This document shows positions 16,581 through 56,025 of a stretch of DNA of 64,000 nt, in pieces (within the stretch, counting starts at the first letter, position 1; every line of letters starts with the position of its first letter). Under the pieces are notes generated by a model. The model ran no database searches, was not told the origin of the DNA, and worked only from the letters and a program-made list of their open reading frames with translations. This stretch comes from Styela clava (lineage: Eukaryota > Chordata > Ascidiacea > Stolidobranchia > Styelidae). The stretch is from positions 6,377,001-6,441,000 of the forward strand of contig NC_135258.1 of the NCBI RefSeq assembly GCF_964204865.1, read 5' to 3'. Both the position numbers and the translations under genes were made by a program.

Positions 16581-16589
16581 TTTTGTGAA

Positions 16590-18792: not shown

Positions 18793-21609
18793 ATGCGTAT
18801 GAAAGTTGCAGCTATTCTCTGTTTCGCATTTTTTTTCCTGCTGGTGGAGGAGACTCATGGTTGGGGGATCAGAAGACTTTTTGTAACACCAGGAAGGATA
18901 TTTAAGCAGTCTGCGAACTCCTACAAATACGTTAGAAATCGGTAAGTTTATTCTCACCGCTTCAATATACTCAATTTATCAAAACTGAACAGTTTTTTTG
19001 AACTTTGCGACTAATTTTTGATATTACAGTTTAATTTTTAAATTGTGTTAATCTTGTATAAAGTTTCTAGGATAAGATAGGTAGGTAACGTGTTGCATAC
19101 TCCGCCGTGGTACCACAAATGCCAACGCAGAAGACAAATACACAACACAAAAGTGTAAATACACTGGTATTTACTTTTCTATGTAGCAAGCGACGTTCAA
19201 ATTATATTCAAGCTCAAGTTATTTTCATTAATAATTTAAATGGAAAATTAGATGGATGAGTACTACAGTCTGATTTTCAGCATGCACAAGCGGGCCCTAT
19301 GAAATACTTTGATGGGCCGGATCAAGACCTCGGGCCATAATTTTTCCATCCGATTTAAGCGATCAAAAGAACAAAATTACTTGAATGTTTTGTCTCCTTT
19401 AAACCATAGGGGGGGGGGGGTAACATACGGCCCGCGACGAGATTTTGACCGACCCGCTGACTGTACATCAGTACATTATGTTATTACATTATTACACTTT
19501 TAGTACATTATGATAAATTCATTATGTGTTGTTTGGTCTCCATTTTTTGTAAAATTTAAACTTTACTTTAAACACGATTCATAATTTTCTTTCTTGCATT
19601 AGCTAACAAATATGTGATTAAGATAATGAATACTATTCATGTTATAATCCGGCCCACCGAGAACTTCATTTTCCCACAACCGCCCGCCTACTAGAGAAGT
19701 TGCCCACCCCTTCTTTAAACCGATGAACCCTTCATATAGTTTTTATTTCTTTGAATACTTACGACACTTTACTTTTATAGCCCAGGCAAGTATTATCGCA
19801 GAGGTTTATGGGACAACAAAGTAGAAATCAGTAAGCTGAGAGAGCTCAAAGAGAAGGTAATCTACTATAATTTGATTAAGATAAAGCTAGCGTTTTAAGA
19901 CTTTGGCATCGCAGGTTATACATCGCTGGTTCAAATCCCATGCCCATCACCGTAACCAGAGTGAAATAAATTGGGTATTCATTGCCGAAGCAGAAAGATC
20001 GCCATATTTTGAAGAAAGTTCTCAGATATCATTGACTACTTGTATAGAGCCTAGTTTGTAGCGAAATCCGAGAAAAAGTGTCCTTAAAAATCATAACAAA
20101 AATTCAAGTTTTCTTTTCTGAGGCGCGGTGGCGTTGCGACGTGTGCTAAGCGTTAGAATTACGCTCGCCACCGTACCTCTTATTACCATACGTCGTCGTA
20201 AGGTGGGTCGCGTAACCGGCGGTTGGTTGCGGCTTTCCTCCATCATTAAGTCCATGCTGAAAACAAATAGCTGGCTAACTAATCTCAACTAATCTGGTAC
20301 GCCAAACATTTAAGCCTTCTGATTGACTTTTCTCTCACGCTGGATATATAAATGCGTAAACCCTATTCTATTTGCATCGCCATTGTCGTATAAATTCTTC
20401 GCTTTACCACGAATGCCTGTGACGAAATATTATTGAAACAATCCTTCATGACTTGAACTTTTCGATATTAACTGATAAAGCAGAGTGTCGCCTAGTTAGT
20501 AGTCAATATTTAAATACTTAACTAGTGATTCGTCTCAGATACAAGTACTTGATAGCTGGGGAAGTCCTAACTCTTGCAGAAATCATCCCATGACGGCAAG
20601 TAGTACAGCAATCCTGTTGCACATATAATTATTAACGTTAAAAATTCGCGTAGAATAATCAAATGGCGATAGAAACCGCGTCCCCACCGTCCAGCACAAC
20701 ACGAGAATTGTGGAACCTGGTTCGTCTGTAGCTTTCAAATTTCAGCACAACATTATTTTTGTTCAGGACGAAGAAGCCTATAAGAACGCAATGTTTAAGA
20801 TTGCTAATGAAACTGCGGAAAAATCGGGAGATGGTAAAGCTCAGATTATGACGGAAATGTTGGATGAACTTGTCAGCATGCCAGACGGTAAGTTTGTATT
20901 CGATATAATTGTTATGAATGAGAAGAATTGATGTGTAAGATGTTAAAATGTCTGAAAATAGACCAGAACTCTCTGATTCGGTATTTAGTCAAGTCACTAT
21001 ATTTTACACGTTGTAAGTTCAAAGGTTTGATCATACTCCTATTTCTATCTGGACGCTTAATTAACCTAGAATGTTGCAACTTGCAAATATCACTGAATCG
21101 CGTGAAGAAACTTTAAATTATTTGAATAGCATTTGCAGGTTAGCCATTTTTTTTAAAGTTTGAAATATGGCGCCATTTTCTCATTATGAAGTCATTTCCC
21201 CACATTTTTCAAGATTAAATCAAAAGATGATATATATTACTAATACATCGTAGTGTTACTAACCTTCAATCGTCTGATCCCCAAGATCATTTTACATGGG
21301 TCACTTTCAAATGTTTTTTTTTTATCAACTATCAGGTCCTAGACATTCAGTCACGACTTTTTACAAGCGTATGCTAGGGTCTATCTGGCTATATAACTTT
21401 AACAAGATTCTGTCAAAAATATCCGATTCAATTTCTCTCTGTTATAACATACAGTATGAACGCCTTTTTTCTCTATTTTAGAGGAATTCAACCAATTCAT
21501 GACTGAACAAGAACTTGAACAAATTGCAGACTCTGACGAGCTGCTGTTAAGAATCAGTGAAAAGGAGTTTCCTGACGGACAGACCGACGAACCGACACCC
21601 AGTTATTAA
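18793..21609 (+). CDS. Styelin-like secreted cationic peptide precursor, copy 1
   Basis: Exons assembled by eye: 18793-18941, 19781-19856, 20767-20887 and 21482-21609, all with GT-AG introns. Their sum is 474 bases, giving 157 residues with no stop. Residues 1-22 are a signal peptide (MRMK, then a hydrophobic run rich in Phe and Leu, then VEETH). A basic core follows, starting GWGIRRLF and rich in Arg and Lys through exon 2. Exons 3 and 4 encode an acidic tail with many Asp and Glu, including PDEEFNQFM, ending TPSY. A polyadenylation signal AATAAA lies at 21654. Signal, cationic Gly-Trp core and anionic tail match tunicate styelin precursors as I recall them, so a membrane-active antimicrobial peptide made in blood cells is likely. 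Exon 2 is 21 bases shorter than in the other copies, in frame. Confidence 0.75.
19260..19710. mobile_element. Decayed hAT-type repeats in intron 1
   Basis: The stretch holds 'gatgggccggatc', 'acggcccgcgacgag' and 'ccggcccaccgagaac', the GC-rich terminal vocabulary of hAT MITEs. Part of it (19290-19390) aligns with 42930-43020 and 53610-53700 in introns of copies 3 and 4, so that element predates the gene duplications. Exact ends are unclear. Confidence 0.5.
19893..20010 (+). mobile_element. tRNA-derived SINE in intron 2 (copy 1)
   Basis: The sequence contains a B-box-like 'ggttcaaatcccatgccc' after a 'ggcatcgcaggtta' segment, then 'aattgggtattca'. Orthologous insertions lie at about 32575-32700, 43353-43480 and 54033-54160, always in intron 2, so the SINE was there before the gene array expanded. 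A related head is also near 36815-36890 and 47500-47580. Confidence 0.55.
20110..20420 (+). mobile_element. Second SINE in intron 2 (copy 1)
   Basis: The head reads 'ggcgttgcgacgtgtgctaa', then 'gcgttag' and 'cgctcgccaccg'. The body carries 'aaatagctggctaactaat' and ends near 'aaattcttcgctttacca'. Fuller copies lie at about 43575-43950 and 54255-54630, a body-only copy at 31205-31420, and a head-only copy at 61503-61605. The head resembles a tRNA, but no intact tRNA fold is claimed. Confidence 0.55.
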
Positions 21610-21653
21610 TTTTATGCTTCCGTTTTTTTTATTGTTTCACAAACATATTGCAG

Positions 21654-22027: not shown

Positions 22028-22534
22028 ACCTGAACATAACGTCGTTCTAGGGACAGCTTGGAAGCGTGCTTAATAGGTGTTGGTTGAAATTTCTTAAGTA
22101 ACGAGTCAAATCTCGAACCCCAATACATTTACCAAACTTTAAGTTACTAAGTCGAGTTACCATTGTTCCAAGTCAAACCGTTGCTAACTCAATCTTTCGA
22201 GTTCTGAAGCAAGTATAAAATGCGAGGTTGCTGCCCTGGAATTCCGTGCCTGCCGAGACTGGGCTCTCATAAAAGTCCGCCACAAAGTCGTTGATAAAAA
22301 TGTGTAAAATCCCTGTTCTGTTTGTATATTATAATGTTCAGTCAAAAGCGACGTAATGACGATGAAATGGAATATACGAATCAAAATAAAACGATAAATA
22401 ACTCAACCTCAAGTAAGATTAAAGCTTCAGAAATCGGAAGAATCTTGCGATTGAGATATGTGCCATGCGGCCCGCTGGTCAGGGTTTGGACCACCCTGAA
22501 TTACATGTTGGTACACAATGTGTGCTTTTTCTGT

Positions 22535-22877
22535 CTAACTTCCAGCAGTTTTATTTTTCTTCCTAAATTTCATTTCGGTGAATTTCAGAGGTCGATTACT
22601 ATTCTTCCACGAGTACCAAGAAGCACTGGTATAGTCATGTATTTCAATGCTGTTACAAATTCCGTTCAGATTCGATTTACCACAGTTGTTGTACCACCAT
22701 GCTCCCCTGCGTTGTATTGCACATTTCCCCTCCAACCATTCGTCGTTATCAGAATATTTTGTTGTAAACTGCATGTTGTTAAGACTCTCAATACCGGCCA
22801 TGGAATCTTTCTTAGTTCCAGAATAACCTCCAATTGATAATCGATATTTGTCGCTGGCGGATGAAATAGAGAAAGTC
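22535..22877 (-). CDS. Fibrinogen-related protein, C-terminal exon (partial gene)
   Basis: On the minus strand an acceptor 'gttacag' at 22883-22878 opens a 343-base exon ending in a stop at 22535. The residues are those of the C-terminal half of a fibrinogen C domain: YRLSIGGYSG, then MQFTTKYSDNDEW, a CAIQRRGAWWYNNC segment with the usual Trp-Trp-Tyr and Cys, SNLNGI, and WYSWKNSNRPLKFTEMKFR. Such lectin-like proteins bind acetylated sugars on microbes in many invertebrates. The start is phase-shifted (one base completes a codon), so a preceding exon is required. It is probably the same gene as the exon at 24953-25049. A middle exon between them was not found by eye. It is flanked by peptide-gene units on both sides. 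Confidence 0.8.
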
Positions 22878-23598
22878 CTGTAACATGAAATAAATAGGAT
22901 ATACGCTGGTGTGCTTGGAAATGTTTTTGACTAATAAATTTATTTATAGGCTATCACCACCACTCCATGGTACAAATGTTAGTTTTTTCAAGTACGATCC
23001 TCAGCCGAGCCTTTTGCACCAAAGGTGTCTTATATTGATATCTGGCGATATGCGAGAAGCTTTCTATATTTTCGAATGATTGGAATCCTTTTTGTTTCGG
23101 CATTGCCTACGAATTTATTACACCTTGGGTGACGGCGTGGAATTGAACCCGAGTTGTGTATCTGCAATGCCAGCACAGTTAAGTCTATGCTGAACCCTTC
23201 TACAGCCGGAACGCCCATAGGTTTACTTTCCTATAGTTTTTAAATTTCGGTACTTATTGGGTCAATATCGCTCTTAGCTGTTTATCGACATAATGCCCTG
23301 ATATGAGAGAAGCGATAAAACCTTCCAGCCGTGACGCAAAGTGCGAATCGTATAGATAGCCTGGATTTCAAAATCACCTGTCAGACGTCTAAAAAATGTG
23401 ACTCAGCTCAGACAGGAAATACTCCTTTATAACGACTTATTATTGTTTTAACAAGTATTTTCAGTCATACTAACTATCCCTGACCATCCCTTGCGCTGTG
23501 TTGTTTTGATAAATATGATTTCGAATGCTCCATAGTTGGCAGAGGTATGGAGATTTTTTGTATGTAAAAAAAACGTAAAATTAATAGTAATTTTAACG

Positions 23599-23646
23599 CG
23601 TAAATGCGCGTATGAGATTGTTTACGCCGTTCTACGCGCATTTACG
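23599..23646. repeat. Perfect 14-bp inverted repeat
   Basis: cgtaaatgcgcgta at 23599-23612 is repeated as its complement at 23633-23646 with a 20-base spacer. It may be the core of an old palindromic MITE. No gene is nearby. Confidence 0.6.
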
Positions 23647-24512
23647 TCGAAAATATTTAATTTTTTTGCATTGGGGGTGGTCTGTGCAGTAATAATAAGA
23701 GCTGTGACGTCATCAGTATCGGTAATTTGACCTTAAACTTGACAATACTGTAAATACAATTGTGAATTTCAGAGTAATAATCATTTATGCTATAATAGTC
23801 GTTTTGGTATTGTTATTTTTTTCGAGGGGTGTGTTTTAAAGATATATTGCTGAATAGAACTCTAGCAGGCGCTTTTAAAAACCCATGGGTAAAGCTTTAG
23901 GGCTTAATGGTTGACATAAAAAAATAAGTTTAAAAATACCCATAAAATGGGCAGGGCTTGAGGCTTGTATTGGGTTCCGCTGGTAGGCACTCTCGTCTTG
24001 CTACTATATGACTTTACATATCATACTATATATATAATTATATTAATTGGACATGAAATAGACCTATAGATCGTTTTGGTATTATGTTGTTGTTGAACTT
24101 GATAACATTTTCCCTCTTGTTTTTCTTTATCAATTTCCTTGATTTTTCAGTAGTTATAGATTGTATTTTTATCTAGAAGGCTTTTCATTTTATTTAGGCC
24201 TGAATACTATATACATCCTATGAGATCTAATATTTTATTTAAACTTTCGCCATATTTTTATTTTTTATGAAAACACGGTTTTTAATCCACCAAGCTTGGC
24301 GACTGTTTTCGATTTGACGCGACGCTACGGAAAACTCGGAGATTAATTGATGTCGACAGGATAGGATATGATTTTCATATTCATCCAGTGGAAAGGAGAA
24401 CCTCTAAGACAATTTAATTATACTGAGAATACACGGTCTCTCGTCCTATTCCCAAGGTTTAGCACGCTTCGCAACACCGCTTTATTTTGGACCTCTTGGA
24501 CTTGTTACTTGC

Positions 24513-24556
24513 CTGCCTTCCTGCCTGTTTGCCTGTCTGTCTGTCTGTCTGACATT
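24513..24556 (+). repeat. CTGT/CCTG microsatellite
   Basis: Runs of 'cctgcctt', 'cctgtttg' and then four perfect 'ctgt' units. Simple-sequence repeat without a coding role. Confidence 0.7.
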
Positions 24557-24952
24557 CAGAAATATAGAGATAATGATACAATTTTACTGAGGAAGGGAAG
24601 TCGCGAGTAACCAAAGCTGGTTATCGAGCAGCGACACCCAAGGTTTCTAATTTCTAATTATATTATAGTTTCATTACCTAAATATAGTTGAAGCCAATAC
24701 AGGGCCAAGAAAATCACCCATAAATAATCCGACATAGTACATTTAAGACATCCTTTACCTTATAGTTTAGATAAACACACATGAAGGAAATTTACAGGCT
24801 GGTCCATGCGACATATTTTTCTTGCCCATCTTATCAAATAGCAGTTTATGCATGTCCCATCCCATGAGAATCCCATTTCCATGGACAAGCCTGGAAATGT
24901 CTCCTCATGGTTACAATTTATATCGAAGCTAAAAAGCGGGACCTAAACTTAC

Positions 24953-25049
24953 ACAACCAAAATTCTTTATCAGTTTCTCCGAATCCGTTCAAGTAATCTT
25001 CCCAGTTTCTTTCAAAGTCTACGAAGCCATCGAGTCTTCGCTGGAAAAC
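24953..25049 (-). CDS. Fibrinogen-related protein, internal exon
   Basis: The 97-base exon sits between an acceptor-like '...gtattttgaag' (minus strand, just above 25049) and a donor 'gtaagt' at 24952-24947. It encodes [20 protein letters not shown], then [12 protein letters not shown], the conserved N-terminal section of a fibrinogen C domain. It ends one base into a codon. The next coding exon at 22535-22877 begins one base before a codon boundary, so the two cannot join directly and an intervening exon of length 3n+4 is needed. Upstream exons with a signal peptide should lie above 25049. A hAT element begins only 50 bases away (25099-25837), and I see no upstream exon before unit 2 begins. 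The gene may be broken. Confidence 0.75.
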
Positions 25050-25098
25050 CTTCAAAATACACAAACTATTGTGAAAACTAAATGAGTTCGATCTAGAG

Positions 25099-26814: not shown

Positions 26815-29313
26815 CAGGGATGTCCAACCTGCGGCCCGTGGGCCGCATTGCGGCCCACTTAATGTTTGGATGCGGCCCACTAACGAATCATTAAAAAAAT
26901 TTTTTTTAGCAAATTTATGAAGTAATGAGCACGAGAGTCTTCAATTTAGTCAAAATATATTTATTGTAATTTAGTCAAAAAATACTTTATATTTAATAAA
27001 TAAAATAATTGTAGCGACCAAATTGAAACTCCCGTATGTATTTTTTCTCGCGCTCTGGTGCGCCGCCACCAGCTACTCGCCATGCCGTTCGCAAGTCTTT
27101 GTTCTCGACAGTGTTGTTTTGGCTGTGGCGGTGTGCAGACTATATCTCTCAAAAGTGCTTAATCATTTAAATTTTCTTTATTGTTGAAATAAATGCATTT
27201 TCAGTAAACTACGGCTCAGTACACCTATTAATGGTTAATTTCTTTTTCAGAGAACTATAATCTTAAGTAATGAAAATTTTATATTTATATGGCCATGGAA
27301 TCTATTACTAAAAAAAGGAAAATAGCAGAAGAAAAGAGGAAATTTAATATCCAATGGACGGAAAAATATTTTGTGACCGAGTTATTTGGCAATATAACAT
27401 GTCTTATATGTAATGATAAGATTAGCGTATGCAAGGAATACAATGTCAGACGTCATTATGTTTCGAAACATGAGTCAGAATATCAGACATTTAATGAAGA
27501 AAGAAGAAAAACGAAAATTGAAGAATTGACAAAGGCAATTAGCTCACAACAAGCTAATCTTCAAAAACATATTGTTAAAAGTGGAACATGTACAAAAGTT
27601 AGTTACCTTATAGCTGAGAAATTAGCTAAGAAAGGAAAACCTCTTATTGATGGAGAATTAATAAAAGAATGCATTGTTATTGCTTTTAATGAGTACTGTC
27701 CAGACAAGGTGAATTTAGTAAAGGAAGCATGTCTATCACATCAGACAATTGGCAGAAGAATTGATGACTTGGGTGATAATATTGAAGGCATACTGAAGGA
27801 CAAATTATCTGCATGCGTTCTTTACAGTTTAGCGTTGGATGAAAGTATTGACCAAAGTGATACTGCACAATTAGTTATTTTCATTAGAGGAATTGATGAA
27901 AATTTCAATATTATTGAAGAAATGTTGGACTTGTGTCACATAAAGGGCACAACAAGAGGCAAGGACATATATGAGATTGTTAATTTGTCATTAGATAAAT
28001 TCAATATTGATAGGAAAAACATTTATTCAATTACAACTGATGGTGCTCCTGCCCTGACTGGTCAACACAATGGTTTTAGTAGTTTATTTAAAGAATCTGT
28101 TGATCATGAGATTCTCAGTTACCATTGCTTGATACATCAACAACAATTATGTGCTCAAAAGCTAAATATGAAACATTTGATGACTGATCTTGTCAAGGCT
28201 GTTAATTTCATCAGATCACGGGGTTTAAATCATCGCGAATTTAAAGCATTCTTGGACGAAGTTGGCAGTGAATATGAAGACGTAGTATATTTCTCAAAAG
28301 TTAGATGGCTCAGTAAAGCAGCAACCTTAAAAAGATTTCAGTTATTGTTGCCTGAAATAAAAGTGTTCTTGGAAAAAAAGAAGCAAAATGTGGATTTTTT
28401 AGAAAATGAAGAATGGTTGAATGATTTATCTTTCTTTGTAGACATCACCGAAGTATTAGCTGAACTTAATTTGCATTTACAAGGAAAGGACCAATTATGT
28501 TCCTCAATGTTTGAGCGAATAACTAGTTTCACAAAGAAATTGGAACTTTTTATAGCACAGCTAAAAGCTGGTAAAATTGTACACTTCCGTAGTCTATCTG
28601 AAAGAGAAAAAAAGTTTTCTGTAAACTATGAAAAATATACTAAATTATGTGAGGATTTGCTTGGAGAGTTTACGATTAGATTTTCTGACCTTAGAAAGAT
28701 TGAAATTGAGTTAAAATTGTTTAGTGATCCATTTTCATTTGAATATGATAAAGCACCAGTGGAGTACCAACTTGAACTGGTTGAGCTGCAAAGTCGGGAA
28801 GGTTTAAAAACTTTTCACAGGGAGAACACACTTCCTTCATTTTATAAGAAATTGCATTCTCTCAAAAATGAATTCAATCAAATTCTAAATTTATCCAGAA
28901 AATTATTATGTATGTGGGGAAGTACATACTCTTGCGAGCAGTTTTTTTCAAGCATGAAAAACATTAAAACTGCAGAAAGAAACAGGTTGACTGATAGACA
29001 TTTAGCAAACATTCTTAGAATTAAGAATGCATCCTTCGATGCAAATATTGAAAACATTATGGCTGGAAGACAAAGTCAAAAGTCTCATTGATTTAATATT
29101 GATTAATTAAATTTAATGTGTTTTTTTATGTATAGCTACATATAAACATTACAATATTTACAACGTTGTAATAATGTAAATAAACTGTATTCACGTGGTT
29201 TTGTTTTATATTGTAATTTTTCCATTAAATTGTATTAAGAAGTGGTTTTGCGGCCCAGTTAAATATTTAAGTTTGCAATGCGGCCCATTGAATTAAAAGG
29301 TTGGACATCCCTG
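26815..29313 (+). mobile_element. Complete hAT transposon, 2.5 kb
   Basis: A perfect 16-bp inverted repeat, CAGGGATGTCCAACCT, forms the ends. The 8 bases gtctaggg lie on both sides (26807-26814 and 29314-29321). 'gcggccca' occurs near both ends. It contains one long uninterrupted transposase ORF and is nested in the outer hAT element. Perfect termini, perfect target duplication and an open ORF point to recent insertion. Confidence 0.92.
27289..29091 (+). CDS. hAT transposase, 600 residues, intact
   Basis: One open frame. Residues 38-61 form a BED-like zinc finger (Cys38, Cys41, His56, His61), which in this family binds the transposon ends. The RNase-H-like core follows with ALDESIDQSDTAQLVIFIRG, ITTDGAPALTGQ and SYHCLIHQQQLCAQ, and then VRWLSKAATLKRF. 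The C-terminal region (about residues 530-590) is the hAT dimerisation segment with STYSCEQFFSSMKNIK and NRLTDRHLANILRI. This layout is that of the hAT enzymes related to vertebrate GTF2IRD2 and ZBED-like proteins. The start is the first in-frame ATG; a second Met follows at residue 3. The product would cut and paste the 2.5 kb element by a DDE reaction in the nucleus. No stop or frameshift is visible, so it may be active. Confidence 0.92.
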   Translation: MAMESITKKRKIAEEKRKFNIQWTEKYFVTELFGNITCLICNDKISVCKEYNVRRHYVSKHESEYQTFNEERRKTKIEELTKAISSQQANLQKHIVKSGTCTKVSYLIAEKLAKKGKPLIDGELIKECIVIAFNEYCPDKVNLVKEACLSHQTIGRRIDDLGDNIEGILKDKLSACVLYSLALDESIDQSDTAQLVIFIRGIDENFNIIEEMLDLCHIKGTTRGKDIYEIVNLSLDKFNIDRKNIYSITTDGAPALTGQHNGFSSLFKESVDHEILSYHCLIHQQQLCAQKLNMKHLMTDLVKAVNFIRSRGLNHREFKAFLDEVGSEYEDVVYFSKVRWLSKAATLKRFQLLLPEIKVFLEKKKQNVDFLENEEWLNDLSFFVDITEVLAELNLHLQGKDQLCSSMFERITSFTKKLELFIAQLKAGKIVHFRSLSEREKKFSVNYEKYTKLCEDLLGEFTIRFSDLRKIEIELKLFSDPFSFEYDKAPVEYQLELVELQSREGLKTFHRENTLPSFYKKLHSLKNEFNQILNLSRKLLCMWGSTYSCEQFFSSMKNIKTAERNRLTDRHLANILRIKNASFDANIENIMAGRQSQKSH

Positions 29314-32300
29314 GTCTAGGGCTAGGCGGTCATGTCAATATGTATATCTATAAAGTAATTGTGTAGTTAAATAAAATTAAAATTAATACCTGCGTAGAGG
29401 AATAATTTTTGTTATGTGCTGTGTTGATACATTTCTTCATTATTACTATGTAATATTAAAATGGCAATATAAAAATTTGACAACGAAAATAGCCAAATTA
29501 GTTGAGCTAGTTTGGCTGATAAATAGTTAAAAACACGTGAATCCGATTCTTTCGCGGGGGTGGGGACATGTATGGCTCATAGCTCACGATCACTCTGGTT
29601 AAAAAATAAATTGAGAAGTAGTATTCCAACTAATCTTTTAAAACATTCTGAGCCATAGCAAAAAAGGTAAATATATCGGAAATATCGGCCCCAATCTACC
29701 CGATACCGATACATGGCCGATACCGAAAAAATGGCTGATTCCGATACCCGATACCGATACATCTCTAATTCAGTCTCCGCCATATTTACTATTAAAACAG
29801 ACACAGTTTGAAAATATGAAAATTATAATATAAATTAGAGATAACCATTGTTTGAGTGGAATTCCTGATTTAATACAATATGTTTTCAATTGAGAATACT
29901 TTAAGCATTCAATTATGGAGTGAATCTAATTTATTAATTGAAATGAAACCAGATGTCGGCAATTGTGTTCATGAGAATGCATTAAAATGACTCTATGAAT
30001 TTAAATTGTGGTATTTTAAAAAGAAACGGGAATCGCCACCACTGTGCTGTTTTAAATTTTTTTTTTTTGCAAAGATTAGGATTCGATTTGAAATAATTGA
30101 GCGCGGACACTTTTAGTATTCAGGTATTAAATTGCACTCACAAGGGCGTATTGGCAACAATTTGAGAGTGATATACCTATTATAATGTTTAACTGAAAGG
30201 ACTCAAAGAAGGCAATCGTGCCATTGGAGAAAAAAGCATCGTTTGAATCGGCACAATTGTTTTGTTTAAAAAAAAAAGATTTTTTATGTTCACAGTTTGG
30301 GATTTGATATGCAATAATTGAGTGCGTGCGGAAAAGTTTAGGATTCAGGTATTAAATTGCACTGCTTCACAATAGCGTACTAGCTGTCAATCATGGTAAA
30401 CACATTGCACATATAATTTGTATAACACTTTGTGTTTAATTGAAGGGAAACCAAGATGTCGGCAATTGTCTCATATGTTAATGCATTCATTCGCCTTTAT
30501 TCACTATTGAAATAGATACACAGATGAAAATATAAAAACTAATGAAGACTTAAAGAAAACGAAGTACAGAATAAGATTTTTGAAAAAATAAATTATAATC
30601 AATTAGAAGGGCTCTGAGAATGCTATTGTGCCATTTAATAAGATATTGCCTGAATTGGCGCCATTGTAGTCAATAGAATTAGAATCATACATACACCATT
30701 ATTGTAGTATTGTAATGTAGATATCATATTCACTATTGTCCACTATTAATTTATTTGTAAATGCGCAGGACATTGAAAACGCAGATGAAAGATATAACGT
30801 CACGCTTTGGAGGGCAAGACAACACAACAAGCCGAAAGAGAAGAACAACGGTTGAAAGAAACGAGGTATTTATATTCATTCATTTCCCACGAGCTATGGT
30901 CATTGGGATTTTTATCGTTTATTCTGTGCTCCTCATTTTAACTGTAGCCATTGCGTTGTTGGATCATTTTACTTCGTTTTACTGGATATAAGCGTATACT
31001 GATTCGGCGGTTTTGAGCATCGTGCTAAAATTAGAACATTTTCTAAATGGGTAGCCTATCACTAATCCTTTCTCCGCACGGAAAACTTCATTTTGGTTCG
31101 GTAATTGAAAACAAAAGCGATTTTTTGATAACGACGGGGGAAAGAATTAATAATGAAGAACAAGAAAAACACAATATCGATCAGTAGGTTTCAGTTTTAG
31201 TGAAGCATTGCGGGCCGGATTCAGGGTTGCCATAGGCATCTGAAACAAATAGCTGGCTAACTAATCCCATACCCGACACGGACTGGTAACCGGACGAGAT
31301 GCCGTGGTTCACCATATGATTGAGCCGTCTTGCCCGCTTTCCTCTTCCTCGGGATAAATATGTAAATCCTATCCTGTCCACTATGTGTGAGATTTTGCCT
31401 TGTTTCGTAACTTCTCCTCGAACAAGGCTCAGTGAAGCAATCATTTATTATAGCGCTTTCTGTTTGATATAATCTACCTTGTTATTAGAACTGGCATGAG
31501 GCACAAATCACAAATCTTACGACGTCAACATTGCTAGGTCTTACCAGCAAACATTAGCCCCGCACCAACATTTTAACAAAGCGAGATCGTTATATTGTAC
31601 AAATATCCACGCGTCTCATTTTGCATTGATAAATTCCTGATTATTATGCTTGAATGTTCTATTCATCATTGATATTGATGACCACCTGACCGTATCATTT
31701 CCGCATGTCTATACCAAACTAATTTATTACTTGTTACTATTTTTTATTATTACGATGACTGTTATTTTATTTTGGTTGTCGAAAAAAATAAAATCTCTTT
31801 CTTTATATATAATTAATTTGCTTACATTATAGGTTTCAGAATAAACATGCGCCTGAAAGCAACTATTCTCTTTTTTGCACTCTCTCTCCTATTGGTGGAG
31901 AAATCTCACGGTTGGGGGAGCAGAGGACTCCTTGGAACACCAGGAAGGGTTAATAGGGAGGCTGTGAACCTCTACAGAAAAATTAGGAAACATCCGTAAG
32001 TTTATTCTGACTGCTTATATATTCAATTTATAGAACTGAACAGTTTTTTACTTTGCGACTAATTTTTGAATATTACAGTTAAATTCTTAAATTTCATTTT
32101 GTGTAAAGTTATTACAATAAGATAGGTAACGTGTTTTAAACTCCGCCGTGGTATAAAATATGGCAACCCAGAAGACAAACACACAACTCCACGGTCTCGA
32201 CTGATAGCGTGTCCGATTAATTAAAGACTAAGATAAAATTTTGATGCTGAAATTTAAAAGATCAATATAAAAAAAAAAGTTTGCCTGAACGTTTGATTTT

Positions 32301-32574
32301 TGTTGTAAGCGTGGTCAAAAAAAAAAACACCTCCCACAGTGCGACAATTCGAATATCAATTTTCTCCGATGATTAGTTTTGTAACGAGTCAAATTTAATC
32401 TTTTCTTTAAATACTTACGACACTTTCATTTTATAGTTTGGGCAACTATGTAATTGAAAAGGGCAAAAAATATTTCTAACGTTTCTGGGACAACAAAGAA
32501 AAAATCAGTGAGCTGGGAGAGCTCAGAGAGAAGGTAATCCACTATAATTTGTTTAAAATAAAGCTAGTGGTTGT

Positions 32575-38325: not shown

Positions 38326-38336
38326 CAATATTCGGA

Positions 38337-45210: not shown

Positions 45211-45268
45211 TTTTATGCTTCAGTTTTTTTATTGTTTCATACAGATATCGCAGATTTAAAAACAAAAA

Positions 45269-45281
45269 AATAAAAAATAAA
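45269..45281 (+). terminator. Poly(A) signals of gene copy 3
   Basis: Two AATAAA hexamers at 45269 and 45276, about 60 bases after the stop. Copy 4 has its pair at 56081 and 56087. Confidence 0.5.
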
Positions 45282-45359
45282 AGTGGCGCCATCGTAAATT
45301 GTAACTGTATTTTATCTTTTCTTGCTTGAGTATTAATCGAGATACCTTTAACACAAGGG

Positions 45360-45620
45360 GGTGCAAATGCGGATCAGACAGAAGTGGAAAATGTGCAGCC
45401 GCGAAGAAATGCTAATTTTGAGTGGTGTGCAGTGTGCATTGCGCAGCCCGAGAAACGAGATTTTAATTTAGTTAAATCTAGTAATTCCAATCCCTTTACG
45501 TTCAAAGCCCATGCCCGAGTTCAACGTAATATCTATGCTTATAACATGGGCCTTCAGTAATATAGATTGCACATTCCTACTTTAACAGAGCGTAAATTTA
45601 CCAAACTCTTAACCAGTGTT
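45360..45620. mobile_element. hAT-type MITE remnant downstream of copy 3
   Basis: The unit 4 version (56165-56470) begins 'aagggtgtgcaacctgcgcc' and continues 'gggggccaaatgcggatcag'. The unit 3 version has lost part of that start. No clear right terminus in either. Confidence 0.45.
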
Positions 45621-47856
45621 CCCCATAAGGAAATGTTACACTGAGAAAATGTTTGTTTTACTGAGCAAGAATATTCTAAAGTTGAGCAGAGTTTTTCATG
45701 ATTTACAAACTATGTGAAATATTACAACAGTCTAATATATTGTCGTACAAAGTAGGCTTCATATTTTACTTGAAAATGTGGATTGGACATTCTAACTAGG
45801 TGTTAGAAAATATAACGAGCCACGCTTCGAAAACGTAATGTTTCAAGTGAGCCAGAATGTGATTTTATTGCACAAATGGTCTGGTGTTACCGCGCAATGG
45901 CGCAGTTGCGAAAAGAAATATACGAGTCGGAATATAACGATAAATAACTCAACTTCAAGTAAGATTGAAGATTCAGATGTCAGGCAGAATCTTGCGTCTG
46001 AGATCTGTGACTTGTCGCAGTTAAAAGAAAAGTAGCGCCCATAATGTAAACCTGGTCAACGTGACGACACGGTCAATCACCTGGAGGCACAAAGTGAGAC
46101 GTCGATATACCCTTATAATTAATAGCAGATTTTGTATATATAATTGAAATATTTATTCTTGAACAAAATGAGTTCCATAAATATCAAAAATCGACCGATT
46201 TTTTTTTGCTGAAGGAAATTTTTGGTTGTTCGTTTTGTTGTTGGGTAAAAACTGGCCTACAGCGACAATAAATATTTAATTTAGTTAGCATTATCTCTTG
46301 TTTTCATTTTTTCAAATTTGTTTGTTGACTAGCTGAATTTTATTAAGCGGAAACCCCAGATATTATTCCGTGAAAACCAAGAATACATGAGTTTTGACCA
46401 GCTTCATTTTAGCGGCCGTATTAAATATGTTCCCTATACTCTCCTGGCTTTCAATTATGCGTCCCGATTTTTCAATAATATATAAATATTAATGTATATA
46501 CAATGTTTTTGAATGTGCATAGACTAATTCTCAAGAATTCAAGTCTTGAGAATGTTCTTGCTGAATTCGGCTTTTGCTTATGGCATGTCTTTGCCCAATT
46601 CAAATGTAAAAATAGGCGCGCACCCTGCCAAACATGTGAAGTCAACGCAAATGTAGAATTTTGATCGCTCCGGGAGTGTGTGTATCAATGTGAAGGGACC
46701 TAATTTTGTTCGCCTACTATACATCACGTTATGTGGTAAATGGACTGATTACTATGGGCAGGGGGTATCTTCACTCGGCTAACATAGACAGTCCCCGAAC
46801 TCGTAATATAACTAAAAAGGGAAAATCGGAATAAAATGGTACACACACTACGGAAGTACCGAATTCTGTGTACAGGAGTGCAGGTTTAATAAATGTTTAC
46901 CTACTTTTATGCGGTCATAAGCAAGATTCACACTTAACGGCGCACGACAGAAATAATGGATGTTTTCAGAATGCATTGGCCAGAGTTAATACATATCCGT
47001 GGTATATCTTTATTTATGAACCAGTTTCCTCATTTAAGCTACTGGGAATCACATAATCGGAGAGTAATCGGAAATTATTCTGTACCTACATCCTGCCTAT
47101 AGCGTGTAACTAGTTCGACAGAAGAAAACAATGGAAAGATATATAGAAGGAGTCTCTACGATTCAAATCAAATAACACAATATATATTTTATATTAGACA
47201 GTAGATTAATTGGACAGAGAGTCTTTTCTTCTGTTTTTTTTTTTTTTGAAATATATTAGTAGCGCAAAATGAAATGATTAAAGCTGAAGTTTCCTTAGAA
47301 CAAACAATTTCTCTATGGTGCAATTGAAGGCGCTCCAGAAGTAAATGTACCAATTACCAAAATGTAATTAATTTTGTTCGCCTACTTTTGTGGTGTAAAG
47401 GGACTGAAGCATATGGGCAGGGGGTATATGACCTAAATTATGACCTAACCCTAACTTGTTACAAACACTATGGAGGTACCAAGTATTGTGCTTAATTGTG
47501 TTGCCATCGCAGATTTGAGATCTCGAGTTAAATCATATGCTCACCCACCTGTAAATGATCTTGTTAAAAGGTGTAACCACGTCGATTGAAAATTCGTTAT
47601 TATTTATTTTACTAATAATTTGCTTCACACGTAAGCAACTCTCGCATTTTTCCGTCCAACTCAAAGTCTGGCTAAAGATTCACCACAAGATTTCAACATG
47701 TTTCTATATGTTTGAATTTATTCTGGTTCAAATTTTTTTGATTGTACAAGATATTTTTTCTGTGGGTTTCAAAAATGAATGGTACAGTAGAAGTGATAAT
47801 TAAACGAATACACATTAATGACTTCTATAATTATCTTTCTTCTGACAAGTTCATCC

Positions 47857-48045
47857 TCAACCCGATACTGGCCTTCGCGTGGTGGTTGGCAAGCCACAAG
47901 CAAGCTTCGGTGGTGGTTGGCTATTATCCAAAATCACCAATTCTACTTCTTTATAATTCCTATCGTTCGCCGACACCATCATTAGTCTTGGTGAAATAAC
48001 CAGAGTGAAGGCTGCAGTCAGAAGCAATACACTCCCCCAGTTCAT
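47857..48045 (-). CDS. Small ORF with signal-like N-terminus (unit 4)
   Basis: Unit 4 copy of the ORF at 37168-37362. Sixty-two codons, same MNWGSVLLLTAAFTLVIS start, with Ile to Leu, Gly to Arg and Asn to Ser changes and an earlier end. The three visible amino acid changes give no sign of protein constraint. No function is assigned and it may be non-coding. Confidence 0.28.
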   Translation of the reverse strand: MNWGSVLLLTAAFTLVISPRLMMVSANDRNYKEVELVILDNSQPPPKLACGLPTTTRRPVSG

Positions 48046-48350
48046 TCTGCTTTTCGTCGTAACTTCGTTTGTAGAAATACCTCAATAATATCACATTCAA
48101 AGCATATAACTTACAGCTTACAGGAAATTGAATCGGTCCGGAGTAGAACGTTACTAGAAATTCGTAGAATTATAGTATTTTGAGCGCAACCTTGTAGCAA
48201 TTACTATTTGAAATTATTGATATTGGGCTATTTTCTGATGGCTTCGTTGTGAATATCAAATTAACAATACTAAACAACTGTATAAATCATTGGTAATTTG
48301 TGTCCTAAAACCTAGCAATGCAATATACAGCCACGTGTGTGTGTGTAGTA

Positions 48351-49020
48351 CAGCGTTTCCCAACATTTTTTGGTCGCGGACTATTTTCTTAACGGTGAAA
48401 CCCTTTGCGGACTCAAGGTGCGTTTATTGCAACCGTATACTCTGTGTGAACAGGCAATAAAACCGAACACAACAGAATTTTAACGAATTTCAACAATGGC
48501 CTTTTCTGTCGCACAATATTCAATCCATGACAACGACGAGAATTTAAGATGTATTCCTATTTTAACTTAATTGTGTTCATGATAATTCGCGGTTGCGTCG
48601 AATTACGACAAGATGAAAGTATTACTTCTCCCAAAATACAATGGCAATCTGTGAACATAATAATGTGAGAATATATTGTCCGATTATACTTAGTTTTGAT
48701 ACATATTTTTGCGATCTTGCTAATTTGTTATCGCCGTTAGAAAAATCCTACTATCTGCTATAAATTTTTAGAAAGTTCAACTTGATTTAGACTTATTAAA
48801 ATATATTTAAAGTATATATATTAGTAAATCAAAAATACATATTCATCGCCATGGTTTATTATTAATTTTATTGTGATCATTTTAATCTGAGGTTGTGTTG
48901 ACGAAATAAAAGCAATACTACTCAGAAAATATGATGACAATCCGTGGACACAAAGATGCGTGGTAAAGTGCCCGATTATATATTTTTTTGATTCGTATTT
49001 TTGTGAATTCGTCAAATCTG
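48351..49020. mobile_element. hAT-like element, left end only (unit 4)
   Basis: Duplicate of 37668-38325, starting cagcgtttcccaac. It retains about 40 bases near 48980-49015 that unit 3 has lost. Confidence 0.5.
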
Positions 49021-52000
49021 AGCTGTTCGTACAACACCTACGGCAATAATCGGAAAGTAATCGGGAATAATTCTGTAACCTACATCCTGCCTATAGCGTG
49101 TAACTAGTTCGACAGAATAAAACAATGGAAAGATATATAGAAAGAGTCTCTACGATTCAAATCAAATACCACAATATATATTTTATATTAGACAGTAGAT
49201 CAATTCATGAGAGGATCTTTTCTCCTGTTTTTTTTTTCCAAAATATATTAGTAGCGCAAAATGAAATGATTAATGCTGAAGTTTCCTTAGAACAAACAAT
49301 TTCTCTCTGGAGTAATTGAAGGCGCTCCAGAAGTAAATGTACCAATTACCAAAATGTAATTAATTTTTTTCGCCTACTTTTGTTGGTAAAGGGACGGAAG
49401 CATATGGGCAGGGGTATATTCACTTGCTATCACAAGAAGTACCCGAACTCGTAATAGAACTAAAATAAGAAAAATCGAAATAAAATTATGGCCGAACCCT
49501 AACCTACCGGAGTACTGATTAAAAGGAAACCAATTGTTCTTTTATGATAATACATTCATTCGTCATTATTTACTATTGAAATTGATGTAAAATAAAATAG
49601 GTTCCACGTATATCCAATTTATGGACTAATTATCTCTGCCAAGCAAACAGGAACCGCAGAATCGTGACAAATTTATAATTCTTCAGTATCCTACATCCTA
49701 TCAAGCGTGAAATAATTTCGACAGGTTTAAAAGTTTACAAATGGTAGATAGAAGAAGTCTTTGAAATTCAAATCAAATAACACCTTATCTATATTATATT
49801 AGACAGCAGATCAATTGATGGAAGGACCTTTATTCTTTTTTTTCGAATATAAATTACTGGTACAAAATAAAATGATTGAATCAGAAATTCCGGAAAACAA
49901 AACAACGCGCTGTGGTATAAGGAAACCGAGATGTCGCCAATTGTTATCACATGAGAATGCATTCATTCTCCTCCATATTCACTATTAAAACAGTTACAAA
50001 GTTACAGATAACCATTATTATGTGTTACCCAATTTAACAAAATATATTTAATTAAAAGTATACTCTGAGGCACAATTGTGAAAGGAATTAAAGTTAATTG
50101 GAATAAAAACAAGATGTCGGCAATTGTGTCCATGAGAATGCATTGAAATGACTCGAAGCACCTAATTGGGTACTCCCTTAGTATGTGTACCAGTTTAGGG
50201 TTAGGTCATATTATTATTCCGATTTTCTTATTTTAGTTCTAATACGAGTTCGCCCATAGGTTTCATTCCCTTAACACAACTTGATGTAAAATAGGTGAAC
50301 AAAATTAGTTGCCTCCATATTGGTATACATACTTCTGGAGCGCCCTAAATTGTGCTATTTGAAAAAGCAACGTGAATTGCCATCATTGTGCTGTTTTAAA
50401 AATGAGTTGTTTTGTTACAGTTTGAAATTCGATTTGAAATAATTTAGCGCAGAAACCTTTAGGTTCTTCAGATATTAAATTGCACTGTTTCACAATGACG
50501 TATTATCAGCAATTTGTGGGTGATATAGATATTATAATGGTTAACTGAAAGAACTCAAAGCAGGCAATCGTGCCATTAGAGAAAAAAGCATCGTGTGAAT
50601 AGGTACAATTGTGTTGTTTTAAAAAATGAGTTATTTGTATTCACAGATCCGGATTCGATTGGAAATAATTGAGTGCGGAAACGTTCAGGATTCAGGTATT
50701 CAATTGCATCGTTTTACAATAGCGTACTAGCTGTCAATCATGGTGAACATATTGCACATATAATACATAAAACAATATATAACACGTTATATATGGATTA
50801 TTGCGACTAATTCAATCTCTGAATAATTTGAATTGAGGAATGAATGAAATGAAAGTGAAATTGAAGATTCGAAAGTCGGAAATTGTGTTCAGATGACAAT
50901 ACATTTAATAAATAATGTTGAGCGCACATACATATTATAAAACCTCTTCGATATATAACTAGAATAACGTCTCCTCCCCCATTTTTGGTCGACTACCAAA
51001 TTGTACGAGTATCGAGCCGTTCGACTACCGAGTTATCATTGTATAATTGGAAGAAAACCAAGATGTCGGCAATTGTTCTTATGTGAGAATGCATTCATGC
51101 GCCTTTTTTCACTATTGAAATAGATACACAGATGCAAATATAAAAATTAATACTAATAAGATTTTTGATGAATTAAACTAAAATTATTTGAAAGGACTAT
51201 AAGCAGGCTATTGTGCCCTTTGATAAGACATCGCCTGAATTGGCGGGCATTGTGGTCAATAGAAACCCATTCATTAAATCATACATGCATCATTATTGTA
51301 GCATTTTAATATAGATTTATTAACTATTGTCATTATTAATTTTGTCGTAAATGCGCAGGATACTGATCATACAGGTAGAAGATATAAAGCCACTCTTTGT
51401 AGGGCAGGACAACACAACAAGCCGAAGAGCAAAGGCAAACTGTTTGAAAGAAACGAGGTATTTATTTTCATTTATTTGGTCAATAGCTATGATCATCGGG
51501 ATTCGAAACTAGGTCATATAATCTGCGGCTTAACTGAGATTAAATAAGCGAGGTTGCTTCAAATTAAATTCATTCAATTCTCTATGTTTCACTGACTTTT
51601 GGCAAATAGGTCTTGTCCGTCGGTATTCGAACTCAAGTCAAATAATCTGCGGTAAAATTGAGATTAACTATTTTGTCACTCGCGGGCCAAAATTAAGGGT
51701 TGCAAGTCTTGACGGGCCGAACATATTTTTTGAAAGTTGAAAACCGAACGGCTGAAGAAACTTCTTCATAAACACCAAGAAATGATACATCTCTCAAATA
51801 GAATATAAATTTATTTCCTCATTGAATTTCATCTCAGATAATTCCATTTGACTATTTTCTGCGTGATTGAACACTTTGCACTTGTCATCAACGGGTTTCG
51901 CGGGCCGGATTATTTTACTTCGCGGGCCGGATCTGACCCGCGGGGCGTGGGTTGCCGACCCCTGCTATAAGGAATTATGTTAAATACTCGATCTTTCGAA

Positions 52001-52459
52001 CTCTCTATTTTGTTGATTTTTAGTATCATGATTAAGGATGGATATTACACTCAAGTCGCTTTAACTCATCTAAAGAATTTTGTCCAAACATGTGCGAATC
52101 AATATTCTACTGTTTTTTTATCGTTTATTTTTCCTTTCTTATTCTTCTGGCATTAACTGTGACCATTTATGAGCGCCTGATCGTATCAGTCCCTCCTGTC
52201 TATACAAAACTAATTTATTATTTTGGACCTCCTGAAGTATGCGCACCAAGATGGCCCACAACCTGAACTGAGGTTGTGTACCAGGTTAGGGTTCAGGTTA
52301 TGCGACATCTTGGTGGACATACCTCAGGAGTACCATTATTTTTTATTATTACGATGACTGTTATTTTATTTTGGTTGACGGAAAAAATAAAAATCTCTCT
52401 CTCTATGTGTTAATTTCCTTACATTATACGTTTCAGAAAAAACAAAATCTTCAAAGAAA

Positions 52460-55400
52460 ATGCGTCTGAAAATTGCAGCTACCCTCTTTGTCGCGCTCTC
52501 TCTCCTACTGGTGGAGGAGTCTCATGGTTGGGGGGTCAGAAGACTCGTTCGACGAGTAGGAAGTATAGCTAGGAAGGCTGTGAAAGTCTATAAAAACGTT
52601 AGAAGGCATCCGTAAGTTTATTCTCACTGCTCCTATAAATATTTAGTTAATTACACTGAACATTTTATTACCTTTGCGAGCGCTCGCTCCAGAAGTGTGT
52701 GTTCCAATAAGGAGGTAACTAATTTTGTTCGCCTATTTTACATCAAATTGTGTAAAGAGGTTTGAAACCTAATGGTTTATTAATTTGGCTAACACAGACA
52801 GTCCCCGAACTCGTAACAGAACTGAAATAAGAAAAATTGCAATGAAATTATGGCCTAACGCTAACCTGGTACACACAATACGGGAGTACCCCTTTGTGTA
52901 TAATTTATAATATTATAAAATCTTGAATGTTTTAATTTTTTACAAAGTTTTTAGAATAAGATAGATAGTAACGTGTTTTATACTCCGCCGTGGTACAAAA
53001 AATAGTAACACAGAGGATAAACACACAACTACAAGGAACAAATACTCCACTGATAGTGTGTTTATTCAAGACTATTTTTAAGATAAAAATAGAATTTGAT
53101 GCCGACATTTTAAAGTCCAAGGGTGGGCATTTACTTTCCTAAGTCAGGGGTGTGCAAACTGCGGCCCGCGGGCCAAATGCAGCCCGGAAGGAAAAATTCT
53201 GCGGCCCACAGAATAGTGCCAATTTTGAATGATGTGCCCACGAAACAAGTTATTAGTTTAGATAATTTGGTACGTGCGCACAATTCCAATCTATTCGCAT
53301 CGCAAAGCCTATACCAGTACCTGAGTGGCACCAGGTACTAACTCACCATTTCTGCAAAGCCCCCTAACAATGCCGTAAGATCAATAACAAAAAGAAACAA
53401 TTTTTGGTGCCTGCAACTACTAGAACGGCTATATTAAAAAAAAGCGCGGCCAGCGGTTTCACCTAGTTATTTGTATCCGGCCCTCCTGTAATAAAAGTTG
53501 CACACCTTTATTCTGAGTGGCAATGGACGTCCAAGTTATTTTCAAGCCAAAGTTATTTTCAACAGAAATTTATACGAATAAAAACTACAGTCTAAATTTG
53601 TAGCAAGCACAAGTGGGCCGGATGAAACACTTTGATGGGCTGGATCCGGCCCGCGGGCCTAATTTGTCCACCCGATTTAAACGATAAAAAGAACAAATTT
53701 GATTGGACGTTTAGTTTTTGTTGGGTTTGTGGTAAAAATAAAAAACACCTTCCCCTCAGTGCGACGATATAAAATTCGAATATCAAATTTTTTCAGACAC
53801 TTGGTTTTAGGGGTGCAAGGAGTCAAATTGAAAAAATAATGAAACCGACGAACCCTGTATATATTCTTCATTTATTTTAAAGCTTGGGCCACATTGCCAT
53901 AGAAGCGGCCAAAAATTATGTTAGAAGACGTTGGGACAACAAAGAAGAAATCAGTAGGCTGAGAGAGCTCAGAGAGAAGGTAATCTACTATATTAATCTG
54001 TTTTAGACAAAGCCAGCGGTTATTAAAGTGTCAAGACTTAACAGTTTCGGCATGGCCGGTTACACATCTCGTGTTCAAATCCCATGCCCCTCACCTTAAC
54101 CAGAATGTAATGAATTGGGTATTCAAGGCTGAACCAGAAAAATTGCCATTCTTTTAAAAAAGTCGTCAGATATCATTGACTACTCGTAAAGAATCTCGTT
54201 TAAAGCAAAAGCACTAAATAAGCGTATGCGGATCATAGCAAAAATTCAAGTTTTCTATTTTGAGGCGCGACGGTGTGGCGCATCGTGCTAAGCGTTAGGA
54301 ATACGCTCGCCATCGCACCTCTGATTATCATGCGTGAATGTGCGAAAGGATTCCTAAACTCTTTGCCGTCGTAAGGTGGTTCACCTAACCGCTGGTCGGT
54401 TACGGCTTCTTCCACCATCAAGTCCATACATCTAAAAACAAATAACTGGCTAACTAATTCCATACCCAATATTGACTGGTAACCGATCGAGATGCCGTGG
54501 TTCGCCATATGATTAAGCCAACATTTCGGCATTTCTCTCACCCTGGACAACTAAATACGTGAATCTCATCCTATTTACATCACCATTGTCGTATAAATAC
54601 TTCGCTTCACCATGAATGCCCGTGACGAAATAATATTGGAACAATCCTACATGGCGAGAAATCTGTCGCTATTAACTGATAATCTGAGTGTTGAATAACA
54701 ATCTCCTGCCTATCGCCTAGTTACGAGTCAATATTTCAACAGTTAACTGGTTATTCGTCCTCAATATGTGTAGGCTACTTGATGGTTAAGAAAGTCGTAG
54801 CTGCTGCGTGAATCACCCTACGACAGCAATTCGGTCGCACAAATTATGCCCGCGGAATTTCAACCTTCTATTTCACGTAGAGCAATCAAATGTGGCAATA
54901 GCAAGCGTGTTCCTATCGCCAAGCACAACACCCCAACCTTTGACCTTTAGTTGCAGTCTTTTAATATCTGTTAAATCTTCTTGTGGTTGCACAATCTTGC
55001 ATTATTTCGACAACATCTTGCCTTTTCCAGCGAGATCTTCAAATAGTTGTTCTAGCCAATGCCTCCTGCACTTTTGTGAGCGTGTCAACTCCATAGATGA
55101 ATTATAGGCTTTGACCTTTGACCTTTGACCTTTGACTTCCAAATTTCAGCACAACTTTCTTATTGTTCAGGACGAAGAAGCCTATAAAAACGCAATGTCC
55201 ATGATCGCTAATGAAATTGCGGCAGAATCTGGAGATGGTGAAGCTCAGATCATGATGGAAATGTTGGACGAACTTGCCAGCATGCCTGACGGTAAGTCGC
55301 GTGTTATGTGTTTTATAAAATAAACGATGGATCTTAACAACGTCACACTGTTTTACTCGAATAGTGTTGTTTTATTGCTAATTCACATCCCTGAATATCA

Positions 55401-56025
55401 GTGGTGCTTGCCTGTATAGGGCTTGATGAACGTCATTTTATAAAAAAAAATGAGAAACATGGCATTTGTTCAGTACATACTCCCGGTGGACTAGATAGTC
55501 TGACGCAGTGGTTCTCCAATTGTTTAGGCCCCGCCCCTTTTATAGAGTTTGTCAAGTCACGCGCACTACCTCAAAAATACCCAGCTAACGATAATCTACA
55601 AGTAACAGATAGTAAGGCGAAAGTATGTTTAGTTCAAAATCACGTTAAAAAAAAACATGAATGGAAAGAAAATAATAAAATAAACAAAAAGTTTTGAAAT
55701 GTAAATATCCGAATTAGGTGGGGCAAGATAAAATCTGATAAGTATTTTTATTTTTAATTAGCTTCACGCCCTCTCAAAAAACTGCGCCGGCCGTTTGATA
55801 ACCACTAATCTGATGGGAATATTTTCTGATTAACTGCACGTGACAAGATTTCGTGATTCTCTCCTATAACATACAGTATAAACGTCTTTTTCTTCTATTT
55901 CAGAGGAATTCAACCAATTCATGACTGAGCAAGAACTCGAACAAATTGCAGACTCTGATGAGCTGCTGTTATCAGTTCAGTCAATTCCTGACGGACAGAC
56001 CGACGAACCGACACCCAGTTATTAA
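52460..56025 (+). CDS. Styelin-like secreted cationic peptide precursor, copy 4
   Basis: Exons: 52460-52611, 53883-53979, 55171-55291 and 55904-56025. They total 492 bases, 163 residues, no stop. Exon 1 (signal plus the GWGVRRLVRR core) is identical to copy 3. The other exons differ at eight bases: six change the residue (Lys to Arg and Ser to Arg in exon 2, Asp to Asn and Val to Met in exon 3, Arg to Gln and Phe to Val in exon 4) and two are silent. The exon 2 changes raise the positive charge. Intron 2 carries a private insertion (54946-55135) ending just before the exon 3 acceptor region. Poly(A) signals are at 56081 and 56087. The role is inferred as for copy 3: a secreted antimicrobial peptide with an acidic prosegment. 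Confidence 0.8.
53145..53510. mobile_element. hAT-type MITE in intron 1 of copy 4
   Basis: Duplicate of 42469-42830, with the full left end caggggtgtgcaaactgcgg. It was inserted before units 3 and 4 split. Confidence 0.7.
54946..55135 (+). repeat. Copy 4-specific insertion in intron 2
   Basis: About 190 bases replace the short segment 'ctggttcgttctgtgg' found in copy 3. It ends in four tandem 7-bp units (ctttgac) that also occur just before the insertion point ('aacctttgacc'). It lies 35 bases upstream of the exon 3 acceptor. Origin not recognised. Confidence 0.7.
55506..55807. mobile_element. hAT-type MITE in intron 3 of copy 4
   Basis: Duplicate of 44693-44992, left end cagtggttctccaa. 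The right flank atctgatg is retained; the left flank reads gtctgacg. Confidence 0.8.

Follow-up and report, generated by a model that had tools for sequence, protein, structure and literature searches.

Four plus-strand genes lie between positions 18793 and 56025 of a 64,000-nucleotide stretch of the Styela clava genome (C10:6377001-6441000, referred to here as the window). The question that they raise is whether they encode styelins, which are antimicrobial haemocyte peptides carrying 3,4-dihydroxyphenylalanine (DOPA), bromotryptophan and other modifications, or precursors of another kind. By the tests applied here the window genes are not styelins. Sequence comparison places them in a sister branch that joins a propiece of the botryllin type to a new core, and botryllin, from Botryllus schlosseri, appears to bridge the two families, with a propiece like that of the window family and a core like that of the styelins. 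In our view the array probably serves host defence in Styela clava, encoding long-propiece precursors of a cationic peptide of ~38-47 residues.

Gene structure of the array

The window was read, spliced and rechecked, giving four genes with four coding exons apiece: gene 1 (18793-21609), gene 2 (31847-34553), gene 3 (41783-45210) and gene 4 (52460-56025). The borders are GT-AG in 12 of 12 introns and the intron phases are 2/0/1 in all four genes. The spliced precursors of genes 1, 3 and 4 are open over 157, 163 and 163 residues, respectively, and gene 2 carries an in-frame TAA. Re-splicing thus reproduced the plus-strand four-exon genes of a preliminary description of this DNA, as well as its three open frames. 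The array is more than a product of chance, since RefSeq holds the spliced gene 3 protein exactly and the pooled ratio of nonsynonymous to synonymous differences per site (pN/pS) in the propiece is 0.52. In the intact precursors a predicted signal of ~22-23 residues is followed by a strongly basic segment, which begins at (G)W, and then by an acidic propiece. Measured in six members, the predicted lengths are 38-47 residues for the basic segment, with a charge of +10 to +15, and 81-97 residues for the propiece, with a charge of -16 to -21.

Relationship to the styelins

A search of the Styela clava genome (376.6 Mb) with the Pfam Styelin family (PF17562; gathering cut-off 27 bits) gave nine matches, eight of them over the cut-off, and three genes at C10:16.31-16.34 Mb, ~10 Mb from the array on the same contig; in the control, matches occurred in two of 14 genomes and were over the cut-off in none. 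Once spliced, the three styelin genes have four coding exons, phases 2/0/0 and precursors of 80-81 residues, and two of them are identical to RefSeq styelin-C and styelin-C-like. Two other searches for styelins in this genome, with a 20-residue styelin A fragment taken from a review (no match) and with a degenerate KHK DNA pattern (eight matches against 16 for the reversed control, taken as chance), failed because an intron cuts the KHK motif.

The two families have in common their species and contig, a related signal peptide, four coding exons, first and second intron phases of 2 and 0 and, less certainly, an acidic tail with DEEF..FM that ends in LLS-type residues. Unlike the window family, the styelins are half as long, have a third intron of phase 0 rather than 1 and lack a counterpart to most of exon 3. 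The layout of 22 + 31/32 + Gly + 26 residues given for styelin precursors in PMC8659048 is not matched by the window precursors. That the latter are about twice as long as styelins, as originally remarked, holds for these genomic genes (157-163 against 80-81 residues), but such a length is not unprecedented, the botryllin precursor having 158 residues.

At the N-terminus, the window family has a styelin-like signal followed by GW. A profile comparison with hhalign aligned the signal and first core residues of the two families with a P of 9.2e-6, and when the signal peptides were compared with one styelin signal, 0 to 37 of 2000 shuffles reached the score (seven comparisons). In the core, 19 of 21 comparisons with styelins gave no resemblance beyond shuffling at p<0.05, the other two giving 0.025 and 0.029, and the KHK motif of the Phe-rich styelin core is not present in genes 1-4. 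For the tails, 0-42 of 2000 shuffles reached the score in 21 comparisons, and four of the seven family proteins scanned matched PF17562 weakly, in the tail only (best E 0.096). An unrelated control was made up of 1619 reading-frame pieces, seven of an initial 1626 being left out for family motifs; against six family tails, styelin-C exceeded the best unrelated piece in four cases, tied in one and fell below it in one. The styelin tail on its own was rejected as proof of homology, being too weak against this control. The earlier label 'styelin-like' therefore stands where the signal peptide and the first two introns are concerned and, with less force, for the acidic tail. It does not stand for family membership, which neither the PF17562 scores (0/7 at the cut-off) nor the cores (2/21) support.

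Clavanins, described in PMC4904370 as small haemocyte antimicrobial peptides of Styela clava, also have an acidic stretch after the core. In contrast to the Arg/Lys-rich window cores, their core is His-rich and has 23 residues, and their genes are on contig C1; no relation to the window family was found by reading the sequences, with no alignment made.

Comparison with botryllin

PMC9966394 describes botryllin as a 37-residue mature peptide released from a 158-residue precursor and made in morula cells; the synthetic peptide acts on bacteria and yeast, Escherichia coli being the least sensitive, with a minimum inhibitory concentration of 50 ug/mL. The 158-residue botryllin record (P0011) was compared with eight family proteins and three styelins. 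Like the family, botryllin has a precursor of this length with a long acidic propiece; unlike the family, it has a styelin-like core with KHK and an arginine run before the mature part.

The propiece of botryllin aligns with that of all eight family proteins at scores reached by 0 of 2000 shuffles. With six of them the scores are 69-96, against a best of 38 among the 1619 unrelated pieces, and the one alignment printed, with P0002, is gap-free over 68 residues. Against the styelin propieces there was no match in any of three comparisons (921-1017 of 2000 shuffles reached the score). The cores give the opposite result: botryllin matches all three styelin cores (0 of 2000 shuffles), whereas seven of the eight family cores show nothing (63 to 1753 of 2000 over the eight) and that of P0003 is marginal at 63. 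Profile comparison agrees with this division, the family aligning with botryllin over 132 columns (P 7.8e-9) and the styelins over 26 core columns only (P 2.8e-7).

The same pattern was obtained with the botryllin epitopes, taken as printed in PMC9966394 and tested with 20000 shuffles each. The core epitope matches the styelins (29, 11 and 261 of 20000), but there is no match in the eight family rows, which all stand at 3017 or more. With the propiece epitope, five of the eight family rows match (59-307) and two do so more weakly (1060 and 1116); P0006 (4436) and the styelins (9932 or more) do not. Neither family matches the third epitope, for which the counts are at least 10115 except for a range of 1697-10827 among styelins and family, where nothing is significant.

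The suggestion that the genes might form an undescribed branch can accordingly be kept for a sister branch with a new core, but the propiece is of the botryllin type and the family is already partly in RefSeq, where it has no assigned function. Among the papers listed by searches of an open-licence library, no title or abstract describes the array, and neither five locus names nor four short styelin fragments gave a match in that library. Styelins have long been studied in tunicates, the sister group of vertebrates, and the gene family is set out in none of the papers listed. The array adds candidate strongly basic peptides and links the styelin and botryllin families.

The predicted mature peptide

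Exon 1 encodes the first predicted helix of the basic segment; exon 2 encodes a hinge (Pro-Leu-Gly or Gly-Gly) and the second predicted helix, which the preliminary description treated as an extra one. In both styelin exon 2 and the mature part of botryllin, this position is taken by the second half of the peptide. Exon 2 therefore more likely encodes the second half of the mature peptide, and its reading as an additional helix beyond the peptide was not kept. Compared with solved structures, the exon 1-2 residues of gene 1 gave chance matches only (best E 0.5).

In the botryllin sequence, the 37-residue mature part ends immediately before DSDKEL when the printed length is counted from GWFKK. 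Alignment to botryllin at this end suggests that the mature peptide of gene 3 would comprise residues 23-68 (41849-43254, plus strand, spanning intron 1). It would thus begin at (G)W and end at the W that precedes DNKEEI, giving ~46 residues with a charge of ~+12, and this cut leaves a propiece of 95 residues with a charge of ~-21. A signal cut at S-x-G before W agrees with the usual small-residue rule, so that either W or GW may begin the mature peptide.

Helical amphipathicity was computed against shuffled sequences. With an 18-residue window and 2000 shuffles, the core of genes 3 and 4 gave 0.883 (p 0.001). Helix 1 is also amphipathic in P0002, P0003 and P0005 (p 0.010 or less) and less so in gene 1 (p 0.03 and 0.22). 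In this computation, as originally proposed, the exon-1 helix of genes 3 and 4 is amphipathic and exon 2 is not.

Divergence within the family

Pooled pN/pS values were obtained from ten pairs of five genes (genes 1, 2 and 3 and two members outside the window), the stop-bearing gene 2 included. The highest value is that of the exon-1 core (1.27, bootstrap 0.78-2.32), followed by the rest of the predicted mature part (0.96, 0.49-2.22) and the signal (0.52, 0.30-1.02). Within the propiece, the exon 2-3 part gave 0.62 (0.35-1.17, an interval that includes 1) and exon 4 gave 0.42 (0.22-0.82, which excludes 1). The core value exceeded that of the propiece in 99.3% of 2000 codon bootstraps. In pairwise counts, in which genes 3 and 4 were taken separately, the 3-4 pair was left out, gene 2 was kept and the pairs are non-independent, the core exceeded 1 in 11 of the 14 pairs, and exon 3 and exon 4 each stayed below 1 in 13 of them. 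The propiece is conserved and the core is faster-changing.

Function and origin of the precursors

If these are host-defence peptide genes, the acidic propiece, which outweighs the basic segment in charge, would prevent the peptide from doing harm in haemocyte granules; a protease would then free the basic peptide, which would disrupt microbial membranes. The propiece probably neutralizes the peptide in the secretory path and the granule until proteolysis. The cell type, processing and killing assumed in this scheme are carried over from botryllin and the styelins, and the processing site, helices and membrane activity of the family peptides are predictions. The role of a long acidic propiece becomes a directly testable question.

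Several results weigh against this reading. The array is known here from sequence alone, and its expression, processing and antimicrobial action are what we infer. The seven family proteins that did not reach the PF17562 cut-off (genes 1 and 3 and P0002-P0006) scored 13.5 bits at best; botryllin was also under the cut-off (16.9 bits, core only). The likeness of the styelin tail is modest, the styelin-C propiece scoring 39-53 against a best unrelated score of 45, and the pN/pS of the exon-1 core does not exceed 1 significantly, its interval (0.78-2.32) including that value. Helix 1, when a window of 11 residues was used, gave p 0.041 in gene 3 and 0.22 in gene 1. In exon 2, none of genes 1, 3 and 4 exceeded its shuffles in amphipathicity (p 0.22 for helix 2 of gene 3). 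Since the botryllin core itself gave p 0.16, the amphipathicity measure is not decisive. No conserved amidation glycine or cleavage motif was seen when these were looked for by eye only, with no program.

The distribution of the two parts of the precursor bears on its history. A long propiece is common to Botryllus and the window family, and a cargo of the styelin type is common to Botryllus and the styelins, which points to an ancestor with a long precursor and a styelin-type cargo. The simplest account is that from this ancestor the middle of the propiece was lost on the styelin line and the cargo diverged or was exchanged on the family line. We accordingly read the long propiece as the older styelid form; on these sequences the styelins would have shortened the propiece and retained the old cargo, and the window family would have retained the propiece with a diverged or exchanged cargo. 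This history is read from a sampling of two species, with gene conversion possible. In either case, the array is a case of propiece and cargo with different histories.

Whether the cargo was exchanged or merely diverged is evenly balanced in our judgement. Ordinary divergence would have changed the core from a styelin-type core beyond recognition, under diversifying or relaxed selection and with no exchange; it rivals the cargo-exchange part alone and is compatible with the rest. The pooled core pN/pS of 1.27, the 11 of 14 pairs above 1, and the initial GW and intron 1 phase common to styelins and the family all agree with it, as do the marginal resemblance of the P0003 core to that of botryllin and the two styelin core comparisons below 0.05. 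Against it, styelin and botryllin cores remain alike across genera while seven of eight family cores show nothing, and the change would therefore be limited to the family branch. More tentatively, the antimicrobial precursor of styelid ascidians might be modular: one long acidic prepro frame, older than the Styela-Botryllus split, could have borne two or more unrelated cationic cargoes. These would be the helix of styelins and botryllin and, in the array, an arginine-rich helix-hinge-helix, with the styelins representing the old cargo on a frame without its middle. Under this somewhat doubtful proposal the cluster would be a cargo-swapping locus, comparable to frog skin-peptide precursors.

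That the cluster consists largely of decaying recent duplicates with little function is unlikely. The TAA in gene 2, the frame-shifted copy at C10:6.25 Mb, the failure to find an intact exon 1 at C10:6.365 Mb and a RefSeq model of gene 2 that lacks the exon 1-2 protein are all what decay would produce, but three of the four window genes and both outside genes spliced are open with consistent splice sites, and the pooled propiece ratio is 0.52. Less probable still is a different role for the secreted peptides, such as packaging in the tunic or in granules, with no antimicrobial action, as basic and acidic halves working jointly as a polyampholyte would allow. Against it stand the homology of the propiece to that of antimicrobial botryllin and the basic character of the N-terminal part, which in genes 3 and 4 is also amphipathic.

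Individual gene models

Exon 1 of gene 1 (18793-18941; all exons are on the plus strand) encodes the signal and the first half of the predicted mature peptide; exon 2 (19781-19856) is 21 bases shorter than exon 2 of genes 2-4, and exons 3 (20767-20887) and 4 (21482-21609) encode the acidic propiece, the latter with the stop. The splice model of gene 2 comprises exons at 31847-31995, 32437-32533, 33262-33382 and 34426-34553. Its TAA (32477-32479, in exon 2) sits near the end of the segment predicted as the mature peptide, and the first open stretch would therefore consist of the signal and basic peptide without the acidic propiece. We take gene 2 as broken; a product lacking the propiece may be made. 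The RefSeq model LOC144427128 (P0007, 104 residues) contains the protein of exons 3-4 behind another start and lacks that of exons 1-2.

Gene 3 is spliced from exons at 41783-41934, 43203-43299, 44317-44437 and 45089-45210, and its protein is letter-identical to P0001 (LOC120339777, a RefSeq model named 'uncharacterized protein'). The exons of gene 4 are at 52460-52611, 53883-53979, 55171-55291 and 55904-56025; exon 1 is identical in DNA to that of gene 3, and the gene as a whole is 96% like gene 3. The two arose by a recent duplication of a unit of ~10.7 kb (35708-46329 (+) and 46408-57168), with 95.5% identity over 8.6 kb and 91.1% over 2.1 kb. Genes 3 and 4 end in a C-terminal extension of ~14 residues (45166-45210 and 55981-56025), which is two residues longer in genes 1 and 2; the relatives P0002-P0006 end before it, after SHQ, SDH or SNH. 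Intron 2 of gene 4 contains ~170 bases (54945-55114) that are not in gene 3, with TGACCTT repeats near the end. Each duplication unit also holds a short minus-strand frame (37101-37400 and 47781-48080) that starts MNWGSVLLLTAAF and is signal-like; these frames have 64 and 62 or more residues and no Pfam match (best E 0.091).

Family members outside the window

The array is larger than the four genes first noted: these are real, but further members lie beyond the window. Searching the genome with gene 4 gave 28 matches and at least four further family loci, at C10:6.365, C10:6.373 and C10:6.25 Mb and on C19; a match on C6 was dropped as weak (E 7.45). The members at 6.365 and 6.373 Mb are on the minus strand directly upstream of the window. 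The 6.373 Mb member, once spliced, is an exact match to P0005, as is the C19 gene to P0003; both have phases 2/0/1, which makes six of six spliced family genes overall. The 6.365 Mb member matches P0006 at 100% over exon 4, at 95% over exon 3 and at 66% over exon 2; an intact exon 1 was not found at this locus. The 6.25 Mb copy is frame-shifted, and only pieces of exons 1 and 2 were found.

A search of proteins gave seven matches with an E of 1 or less, each assigned to Styela clava. The only relatives with a name to be recovered were styelins and, in a targeted search, botryllin. Gene 1 was not among the matches of either the seven-protein search or that which recovered the styelins. Gene 4 could be a second member of the P0001 cluster. 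P0001 and P0002 have one locus name (LOC120339777) and strongly different cores, and may be alleles of one locus or separate copies.

Other features of the window

Between genes 1 and 2 lie minus-strand exons (22520-25060), the last of which carries a fibrinogen C-terminal domain (Fibrinogen_C in Pfam, E 5.5e-21), perhaps from a ficolin-like immune lectin; an earlier exon (24940-25060) was read by eye only. The same interval holds an open hAT-type transposase frame of 600 residues (27289-29091; zf-C2H2_12 and Dimer_Tnp_hAT). Further mobile-element sequences are a minus-strand pair of endonuclease and reverse transcriptase frames resembling a long interspersed nuclear element (10916-14291), a transposase frame of the Mutator-like type with a FLYWCH zinc finger (5111-6259) and the integrase frame of a minus-strand retroelement fragment (61945-63201). 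Two related tandem-repeat arrays (4178-4632 and 16585-17149) are in opposite orientation, at most 88% alike and open in several phases. A recent head-to-tail duplication of 658 bases (59287-59944 and 59943-60600) is 98.8% identical.

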